A DNA stretch of 64,000 nucleotides from Fibrobacter sp. (GTDB taxonomy: Bacteria > Fibrobacterota > Fibrobacteria > Fibrobacterales > Fibrobacteraceae): positions 1-64,000 of the forward strand of contig JAKSIG010000005.1 of assembly GCA_024398955.1 (NCBI GenBank), read 5' to 3'. The number at the start of each line of letters is the position of its first letter. The stretch's first letter is position 1. The notes below the pieces were generated by a model. It made no database searches and had not been told where the DNA came from. It saw nothing but the letters and a program-made list of their open reading frames with translations. This document shows positions 2,782 through 5,065 of the stretch, piece after piece. The position numbers and the translations under genes are program-made.

Positions 2782-2826
2782 TTTGTCATATGTAAGTCAA
2801 GGCAAAAAGTGCATTTTTGTGAAATT

Positions 2827-3033
2827 GGACTCCAAATAAAGAGTTTTCACCGATTTGGAGCCTATATTTTTAGTTTGTTCGGGATGCTTTTGAGGGAGCG
2901 TTCGTTGAAAAGGACTCCAAAATGGGAATTGTTGACGAAATGGAGCCCATCAAACTCATGGAAAATACTTTTTATTGCTAGTTTGTATGTAAATTTGGAC
3001 TCCGAATTCATAGAATCAGTACGTTTGGAGTCC
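2827..3033. repeat. Array of three 36-bp dyad units spaced exactly 85 bp apart
   Basis: Units start at 2827, 2912 and 2997. Each is GGACTCC, then 23 variable bases, then GGAG(C/T)C. The six short sites, each a near-palindrome of the type GGA-S-TCC, are centred at 2830, 2860, 2915, 2945, 3000 and 3030, a strict 30/55/30/55/30 spacing. Only the ends are conserved; the 23-bp interiors and 49-bp gaps differ. In units 1 and 3 the arms extend into AT pairs, so RNA hairpins are possible. The pattern stops cleanly on both sides: bases at the expected next positions (2742 and 3082) do not match. Confidence 0.8.
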
Positions 3034-3104
3034 AAAAAAGGGAAAAAAGCCTGCTTGAGGGGGACTCGCGAACGTAATTCTGGATGTTTTCTATTTTTCC
3101 ACCT

Positions 3105-3533
3105 ATGTCAACAGAAACCTTATACGATCCCATCCGCAAGAAGGATGTTCCCGCCACTCCCGAGGAACATGTCCGTCAGGCAACCATCCGCTATTTGCTG
3201 GACCAGGTGAAGGTTCCGGAGCATCTGATTGCGGTGGAGTTCCCACTGAATCTTGTGGACCCGAAGACCGAAGATCGAGTGGACATTTTAGTGCAAAATT
3301 TTAGGGCAGGGGCTGACTTAAGCAAGCCTTGGCTTCTGGTAGAATGCAAGGCTCCCGGTGAATACTCCTGGCCCGCATTGCAGCAGCAGCTGAACAAGTA
3401 CCTGCAGATTTTGACTCCGCTGTATGTAATGCTCTCGCTGGGGGATGCCGTTCGCTACTTTAAGCTTGATCCCGCTACAAAACGCTTTGAAAAAATCGAG
3501 ACGTTGCCGCTGTTTACTGCACCACAGAAGTGA
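3105..3533 (+). CDS. Stand-alone HsdR N-terminal-domain protein (PD-(D/E)XK nuclease-like)
   Basis: This 142-residue protein looks like the N-terminal nuclease-type domain of type I restriction subunit R (HSDR_N_2 type), without helicase or specificity domains. The core D in RVDILV and the E-x-K in LVECKAP fit the PD-(D/E)XK active site. I start it at ATG 3105 (MSTETLYDP) because homologues of this size begin near the YDP-like segment; an ATG at 3084 would add seven residues. No strong ribosome binding site is visible. Its stop overlaps the 3' end of xseA by 20 bp on the opposite strand. Similar solo proteins occur widely in Bacteroidetes-like genomes and their role is unknown. Directly upstream is the 85-bp-period array. 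Confidence 0.75.
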   Translation: MSTETLYDPIRKKDVPATPEEHVRQATIRYLLDQVKVPEHLIAVEFPLNLVDPKTEDRVDILVQNFRAGADLSKPWLLVECKAPGEYSWPALQQQLNKYLQILTPLYVMLSLGDAVRYFKLDPATKRFEKIETLPLFTAPQK

Positions 3534-4812
3534 CGTTGCCGTCTTTGAATCTGGTGGTAAGCTTATCGCCTGGCTTTAGCTGGCTTGCATTGCGAACGAA
3601 TTTTCCTGATGCGTCCAAGGTAAGGGAATAGCCCTTGGCCAATGTTGTTGCCGGATCGGCTGCCTTTACCCTTACTTCGGATAAAGTAAATTTTGATTTT
3701 GCCAGATCCAGAATTTTGCGAGAACCTTGTCGAAGACCTTCGATATCTCGATCGAGGCGTGCGTTCTCGTCACGTATGATGTAGCTTAGGTCTCTCTTGA
3801 GGTTGCTGCTACAGATGGCAAGTTTTGTCTTTTCGCCCTGAATGCGGGCTGTTACTTTTTGCTGCAGGCGGACACCCGCATTTGCCAAGGTCTGGTTCTC
3901 GCGGACTATGGCATCCTTGGCGCCCATGGCCACATTCTGTGCAGCAACCAGCATGTTGTTCCATCCGTCGCTGACTCGGTCAACAATTCTCTTGGCCGTA
4001 TCGGTGGGCGTAATGCAACTTTGGTATGCAACTTCATCCAGCAAACTCTTGTCAATCTCGTGACCGATTCCCGTGAACACGGGAATGTGGTAATTAGCTA
4101 CAGCTCGGCAAAGGGCTTCGCTGTCAAAGAAATTCAAATCTGTTTTTGACCCGCCTCCGCGTACGATGCAAACTACGTCCAGAGATGGTTCCTGAGCCAA
4201 TTTTTCGAGTGCTGCCAAAACAGATCGTTCTGTTTCTTCGCCCTGCATCTTTGCGTAAACAGTCATGACCTTAAAGGCGAAGGGGGATTCTGCCAGCTTT
4301 GATGTGAAGTCCTTGAAGGCGGCTGTCTTTTCGCCTGTAATAAGACCGATGCGCATTGGCATGTCGGCAAAAGGAAGATTCTTGTTCTTTTCTAGCAAGC
4401 CTTCCAGGGCGAGTCTTTTTAAAATGGCGCTTTTTGTAAGAGCGAGTTCTCCTACGGTGTACACCGGATCAATATCAAGAACCTGCGCTTGCAATCTTCC
4501 GGTTGGTATATAAAGATCTGCTTTTATTAGCAGGCTGACCTTTAGTTCTTCTCTCAGTTCAAAAGGCTGTTCAAAACTTTGAATTTTTGAAAGAATGTAG
4601 GCATAGCGGCCGGCAAAGCAGGTTAAGTCCAGGGCGGCGACGGGCTTTACGCTACCTTCTACAAAGTCTGCAATGCTTATGTAGACTATGTTTGGCTTTA
4701 CCGTCATGCGGGTAATAACGCCGCGAACCCATACGGCAGGCGTCTCCTCAACCCGTTTTTTCAGGGAAGTAAGGTATTGAGTTACGGTAAAGGACTTGTT
4801 TTCTGTTGCCAT
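3514..4812 (-). CDS. xseA: Exodeoxyribonuclease VII large subunit
   Basis: A 432-residue XseA: an N-terminal OB-fold part (VWVRGVITRM, about residues 25-110), then the catalytic core with GLITGEKTAAFKDF, VCIVRGGGSKTDLNFFDSE and the conserved GIGHEIDKSLLDEVA. A helical region and a short C-terminal segment with ATTLAKGYSLT follow. With XseB it degrades single-stranded DNA in the cytoplasm during repair. I prefer the internal ATG at 4812 (MATENKSFTVTQYL), since XseA proteins start a few residues before the OB-fold; an ATG at 4839 is possible. No xseB follows it in this window. Confidence 0.92.
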   Translation of the reverse strand: MATENKSFTVTQYLTSLKKRVEETPAVWVRGVITRMTVKPNIVYISIADFVEGSVKPVAALDLTCFAGRYAYILSKIQSFEQPFELREELKVSLLIKADLYIPTGRLQAQVLDIDPVYTVGELALTKSAILKRLALEGLLEKNKNLPFADMPMRIGLITGEKTAAFKDFTSKLAESPFAFKVMTVYAKMQGEETERSVLAALEKLAQEPSLDVVCIVRGGGSKTDLNFFDSEALCRAVANYHIPVFTGIGHEIDKSLLDEVAYQSCITPTDTAKRIVDRVSDGWNNMLVAAQNVAMGAKDAIVRENQTLANAGVRLQQKVTARIQGEKTKLAICSSNLKRDLSYIIRDENARLDRDIEGLRQGSRKILDLAKSKFTLSEVRVKAADPATTLAKGYSLTLDASGKFVRNASQLKPGDKLTTRFKDGNVTSVVQ

Positions 4813-4864
4813 AGTGCCGAATATAACTATTTCTGCCAAATCAAAATTTTATTTTTATTGCACT

Positions 4865-5065
4865 ATGGCAAAAGTTGTATCAGCAATGGAAGTTCGTCAA
4901 AATTTTGGAAACCTGCTGAACCAGGTTTCCATTAAGGATGAAGAGATTATCATCGAGCGTGCTGGCAAACCCTTAGCTCGCCTGGTGAGCGTTGCAACGC
5001 CATCTGCAGGCAAGCTGGATTTTCGCGATATCAGCAAACTTCCCAACCAGATTTGGGAAGAATAG
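4865..5065 (+). CDS. Phd/YefM-family antitoxin-like protein without an adjacent toxin
   Basis: A 66-residue protein starting MAKVVSAMEVRQNFGNLLNQ, typical of the Phd/YefM DNA-binding fold, followed by EEIIIERAGKPLARLV, the strand-turn-strand signature of the family. Such proteins bind their own promoter and neutralise a partner toxin through the C-terminal tail, here ending KLPNQIWEE. The start at 4865 gives the usual N-terminus; the longer frame from 4796 would overlap xseA and adds unrelated residues. The next gene (5075-6817) is a lipoprotein on the opposite strand, so no Doc, RelE/YoeB or PIN toxin lies beside it. The DNA between it and divergent xseA is 52 bp. Confidence 0.85.
   Translation: MAKVVSAMEVRQNFGNLLNQVSIKDEEIIIERAGKPLARLVSVATPSAGKLDFRDISKLPNQIWEE

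Follow-up and report, generated by a model that had tools for sequence, protein, structure and literature searches.

The paired inverted sites at positions 2827-3033 of the window, i.e., the whole 64,000-nucleotide stretch of Fibrobacter DNA analyzed here, belong to a non-coding element that is dispersed in Fibrobacter chromosomes, and we consider it probable that each copy is an assembly platform for a putative DNA-wrapping protein complex. Pattern matching found GGACTCC-N23-GGAGYC at 2827, 2912 and 2997 exactly, and the six site centers (2830, 2860, 2915, 2945, 3000 and 3030) have a spacing of 30/55/30/55/30, which bears out the three 85-bp-spaced units and the six-site spacing claimed in the initial annotation. 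The left arms of the three pairs (sites 1, 3 and 5, plus strand) occupy 2827..2836 (GGACTCCAAA, from the pattern match and the site logo), 2912..2921 (GGACTCCAAA) and 2997..3006 (GGACTCCGAA). The right arms, GGAGCCT, GGAGCCC and GGAGTCC (sites 2, 4 and 6, minus strand), occupy 2854..2863 (TTTGGAGCCT read on the plus strand), 2939..2948 (context AAATGGAGCCC read on the plus strand) and 3024..3033 (TTTGGAGTCC read on the plus strand). An accessory motif is found on the plus strand in both gaps, as M1 at 2870..2878 (TTAGTTTGT, 10-18 bp past the center of site 2) and as M2 at 2978..2986 (CTAGTTTGT, 14-22 bp ahead of the center of site 5). Together with the flanking A/T tracts, the whole element extends over 2811..3049, based on A/T phasing and on the orthologue in G090 (L161), and its plus direction was assigned from the M motifs. 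It should be noted that the 55/55 gaps of the window copy are an exception; in sister arrays, the two gaps usually measure 55 and 65/66. These 55 and 65 gaps, the motif in both gaps and about a dozen further copies had been missed previously.

We searched the host genome (3.18 Mb, 109 contigs, 88% complete) and detected 17 matches of GGACTCC-N23-GGAGYC per strand, compared to none for the reversed control; the looser pattern CTCCA-N20/21-TGGAG produced 27 matches versus 0 in the control, nearly all of them within arrays. There are approximately 13 arrays in this genome, all of them intergenic. Genomes were searched and read in stretches, and the array counts are therefore lower bounds. A second genome with the same spacing, the lack of which the initial annotation had named as evidence against the array, was found, and the geometry recurs genus-wide. 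Among 49 non-redundant Fibrobacter arrays, the architecture is pair-55-pair-65(or 55)-pair: the intra-pair center spacing is 30 in 121 pairs and 29 in 26, gap 1 is 54-56 in 48 of the 49 arrays, and gap 2 is 65/66 in 36 arrays, 64 in one and 55/56 in 12, so that the alternative gap lengths differ by one helical turn. Decayed arrays were also encountered, one lacking the middle pair (L048:3546) and others reduced to single pairs (L050, L051, L054). If the window alone is considered, the small number of units could be attributed to chance or to decayed coding sequence; however, given the host-genome matches against an empty control, the 49 arrays in the genus and zero arrays in shuffled sequence, the probability of this explanation is practically nil.

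Each site consists of a variable 5-mer and CCAAA, and the two sites of a pair are inverted. Alignment of sister arrays revealed the second motif, with the consensus TTANTTTRT, at a fixed place in both gaps and on the same strand, and when arrays are oriented with the 55 gap first, M1 and M2 are found at approximately the same offsets as in the window (10-18 bp beyond the center of site 2 and 14-22 bp before site 5). The orientation of M puts the short gap first in 37 of the 38 arrays with unequal gaps; thus, the motif gives the array a direction.

A generic pattern restricted to the geometry and to the inner halves of the sites, CCAAA/TTTGG, recovered the same architecture, with other outer five bases, in other Fibrobacter species. 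A later geometric detector for the outer words identified GGRCT (dialect A), TGNTA (dialect B), GCAGA, ACTRA, ACNRG, GGGTA, ATGGA and AGACN before CCAAA, that is, seven or more dialects of a single architecture, GGRCT being the dialect of the window. The initial description of each site as nearly palindromic is correct for the window dialect, but it does not extend to other dialects, e.g., TGCTACCAAA. The six sites of one array are normally all in one dialect, and two dialects are present within some genomes, for example GGRCT and ACTRA in G090. At the miaB locus, an array between miaB and a PD-(D/E)XK gene retains one direction in three dialects: GGRCT in G000, G081, G024 and G090; GGGTA in G009, G025 and G079; and TGCTA in G027. 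In the array located just after trpS, G000 and G081 have the word GGACT and G007 has AGACN, with identical direction. With three dialects at miaB and two after trpS, a locus therefore keeps its layout while the recognition word changes. The Fe-alcohol-dehydrogenase locus was not counted as a third such place, the array being on different sides of the gene in the two dialects.

At the miaB locus (L053:3710-4540; L167:45-875, complement), the adjacent PD-(D/E)XK protein of close relatives is nearly identical in its C-terminal half, but its N-terminal half differs, as does the dialect of the array; this is a recombination block in which the array and the N-terminus are swapped together. At trpS, there is one array on each side of the gene, 1.3 kb from each other (L045:3516-3726 and 4854-5064); their gaps are partly similar, and the pair is probably a local array duplication. 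A different dispersed repeat, CCAAATGAGGTTTTTCTTAATTTTGGTCTAAAAAATAA...AACTCTATTTAGAAC, is nearly constant in sequence and was detected in G003, G010, G030, G061, G080, G086 and G091.

Of 80 Fibrobacter genomes, 26 contain the pair-plus-M1 pattern, for which control matches are almost absent, and approximately half of the Fibrobacter genomes have no match to the generic pattern. The element is not essential, because the arrays are patchy, with close relatives lacking individual arrays and about half of the genomes lacking a match. In 88 non-Fibrobacter genomes, the generic pair-plus-M pattern had four matches, which is approximately the control level, and no dialect B array was found in the 46 other genomes of the class. 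Among GTDB contigs, real dialect A arrays were found only in horse-faeces Fibrobacter MAGs, as judged by contig titles and chance expectation, and the remaining dialect A pattern matches look like chance. Viral carriers were considered and rejected, the pattern matches in viral contigs not being arrays. A consistent orientation of the arrays relative to replication was rejected as well, orientations being mixed inside single contigs; in G062, all eleven pair-plus-M1 matches, on ten contigs, are on the forward strand, which may reflect assembly orientation. A search of the open-access literature returned no published description of such arrays, and on this basis the dispersed six-site element of Fibrobacter has apparently not been described previously.

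We compared eight orthologous array pairs (including the Fe-alcohol-dehydrogenase pair L187/L180, of the same dialect and place), and the fraction of differing positions was 7.3% for sites, 4.2% for M, 21.7% for interiors, 22.7% for gaps and 26.0% for flanks. Sites and M thus evolve approximately 3-5 times slower than spacers. Between arrays of the host genome, the interiors have 29% identity, compared to 27% expected from composition. As the spacers of copies in one genome have no sequence in common, recent transposition is unlikely, and the near-identical copies typical of a MITE or another non-autonomous transposon were not observed among the host-genome arrays.

These results bear on the main rival explanation, which we regard as unlikely, namely that each array is a mobile element of the non-autonomous type, or a recombination end, and that its sites bind a transposase or a recombinase; each dialect would then be a subfamily moved by its own enzyme, and the shared loci would be insertion hot spots. 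Such mobility could account for the patchy distribution, the widely varying copy number and the several dialects per genome, and the subterminal sites with an accessory motif resemble transpososome or intasome ends. It is also compatible with the state of the window locus, at which the array of G000 and G090 is precisely absent from G079 and G024, these two having approximately 10 nt (GGGAGTTGCT) between the same flanks. This clean difference could be either loss or gain, and the one empty site inspected (G079/G024) is a precise indel with no clear target duplication, a scar explained equally well by recombination loss between the near-palindromic outer sites. Conversely, the absence of common interior sequence, the constraint on sites while spacers diverge, the three dialects in one direction at the miaB locus and the lack of a transposase-like gene adjoining the arrays argue against mobility.

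The DNA-wrapping platform that we prefer is consistent with the helical phasing of the arrays. In 28 arrays of identical P1-P2 geometry, the best period of the A/T content is 10.5 bp, with a power of 1.47 compared to a maximum of 0.31 in the null model (2000 rotations); when sites and M were masked, the power at 10.5 bp was still 0.85 versus a null maximum of 0.16. An early suggestion that a protein reads evenly phased sites, 85 bp corresponding to eight helical turns, is supported by this period and by the genus-wide geometry. Phasing of this type is the signature expected of a DNA-bending or DNA-wrapping complex, and wrapping of the arrays is accordingly a prediction from sequence. Under the proposed mechanism, a putative sequence-specific protein would bind as three dimers (or as an oligomer), with one inverted pair of 10-bp sites spanned by each; CCAAA would provide the core contact, which does not vary, and the word formed by the five outer bases would set the specificity. 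TTANTTTRT in the gaps may be read by a second factor or by a different face of this complex, which would make the complex directional. As the contacts would be located on helically phased faces of bendable DNA, the approximately 215 bp of the element are probably wrapped or looped. Proteins of different specificity are likely to operate in different species and in paralogous systems of a single species, with the sites switching in concert.

Array neighbors are unrelated housekeeping genes, for example those for an aminotransferase, IDH, TGT, histidinol dehydrogenase, SAICAR synthetase, EPSP synthase and dUTPase; no recurring DNA-binding or recombinase gene and no transposase-like gene was found among them. 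The gene contexts are convergent in 17 cases, divergent in 13 and codirectional in 17, as assigned greedily with a simple ORF caller. The window array is placed between an aminotransferase gene (complement 1337-2641) and a gene with an HsdR_N domain (start in the region 3084-3108), and these two genes are divergently oriented. An operator array, at which a regulator controls the adjoining genes (those for the aminotransferase and the HsdR_N protein in the case of the window), would fit this divergent arrangement, and helically phased multi-site operators are well known; however, many arrays are located between convergent genes or right after stop codons, where there is no promoter to control, the neighbors have no common function, and M differs from the promoter box, so that we consider this reading improbable. 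A promoter function of M itself was rejected, TTANTTTRT not being enriched upstream of genes, unlike TAnnTTTG and TATATT.

The initial annotation also envisaged a self-contained unit composed of the array, the nuclease-like gene and a terminator, and this proposal was abandoned, other arrays having unrelated neighbors and the HsdR_N gene persisting in relatives without the array. The latter gene was rejected as an array partner on the same grounds, and no linkage of the arrays to a restriction-like gene, as in a type I restriction unit, was observed. The leftward terminator at 2758-2781 does not belong to an RNA of the array but is a relic. In relatives, a 34-codon minus-strand gene (in G081, MKNVFEQNIIAAAIAAGAAEARACVKSCATVQEL) ends at this terminator; in the present genome, that gene is deleted and its terminator is all that is left (region 2758-2800 of the window, compared in L156-L161, L163 and L164). 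The multi-copy PD-(D/E)XK protein, encoded beside the miaB array and some others, is the sole recurrent array neighbor; it was rejected as the binder, being absent from the array-bearing genomes G092 and G094, and its copy number (0-8) is unrelated to the arrays. Elsewhere in the window, positions 4796-5062 contain a Phd/YefM-type antitoxin gene with no obvious adjoining toxin gene.

The arms of a pair are complementary, often with A-runs at the left and T-runs at the right, and they could be taken for the stems of an RNA element such as tandem hairpins, bidirectional terminators or a small RNA. We compared pairing between partner arms to a null model in which the right arms of each array were shuffled across its three pairs. 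There are 631 Watson-Crick pairs between partner arms, compared to 629.7 +- 4.1 after shuffling, and counts that include G-U pairs are likewise unaltered on either strand; a raw excess of G-U pairs on the minus strand (63 versus 23 on the plus strand) vanished as evidence of pairing under the same control. As true partners pair no more than shuffled ones do, the arms are not stems of an RNA or a hairpin. In dialect A, the variable position shows no covariation between the two arms of a pair (A-T 31, G-T 15, A-C 9, G-C 3), and compensatory changes of the kind expected for an intrinsic terminator or a structured RNA were not found. The fold of the minus strand of the window array is better than that of shuffled sequences (z = -2.98), although the stretch folded includes the relic terminator, whereas the plus strand has z = -0.93. 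No Rfam family matches, and the strictly fixed length and free sequence of the spacers are the opposite of what RNA loops have. The structured RNA with repeated stems suggested at the outset is thus very improbable.

If the arrays are indeed platforms of a protein complex, their role, which we propose with lower confidence, may be to organize or insulate the chromosome between transcription units and not to regulate particular genes; nucleoid structure and a boundary of supercoiling or transcription are candidate functions. The arrays would then be the footprint of an unknown DNA-organizing (or recombining) protein system in a major genus of gut fiber degraders. A genome-wide change of the word, with place, spacing, direction and motif fixed, would represent concerted co-evolution of a bacterial DNA-binding protein and its dispersed sites, and the natural dialects at identical loci would be a ready series for studying how a protein and dozens of sites switch specificity together. 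The fixed geometry makes the putative complex directly testable by pull-down and footprinting.

Among known systems, parS/Noc-binding sites (PMC7383237) are similar in being dispersed chromosomal sites for a sequence-specific protein, and switching of DNA-binding specificity has been documented for ParB/Noc relatives. However, those sites are single palindromes of approximately 16 bp, bound by a ParB/Noc dimer, whereas the arrays consist of six asymmetric 10-mers, in most dialects non-palindromic, with fixed helical spacing and an accessory motif, and, unlike in parS/Noc sites, one dialect stands in place of another at a given locus. REP/BIME sequences (PMC3733652) are, like the arrays, short inverted intergenic sequences in many copies, often between convergent genes. 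Copies of REP share the palindrome sequence, whereas the arrays share only 10-bp site words and spacing, with interiors close to the composition expectation and arms that pair at the shuffled level. No RAYT transposase was found among the reported Pfam matches of array-flanking genes. A CRISPR consists of direct repeats of invariant sequence with unique spacers between them; the arrays differ in that their 10-bp words are inverted, with a spacing of 30/55/30/65/30 and always in three pairs, and direct repeats as long as those of a CRISPR were not found. The BOX elements of pneumococcus are modular intergenic arrays in many copies, with modules that are conserved over their full length and fold as RNA; the modular intergenic layout is common to both, and the Fibrobacter arrays differ in free spacers and in arms that are not selected to pair. 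In attP-type intasome DNA and transposon ends, several inverted protein sites and sites for bending proteins are combined in a helically phased and directional manner. The arrays resemble them in inverted sites for one protein, accessory sites, phased bent DNA and direction, and differ in that no nearby recombinase gene and no crossover core were found and that about a dozen copies are fixed. Strong gyrase sites have A/T-rich tracts that are in phase for more than 100 bp and indicate wrapping, and they have no exchangeable words or inverted-pair geometry; the arrays are similar in A/T phasing and differ in both of the latter features. We tentatively suggest that the arrays may constitute a new class of chromosomal element in bacteria, namely directional platforms of six sites on DNA that is phased and can be wrapped, which would be read by a protein family whose specificity switches between species.
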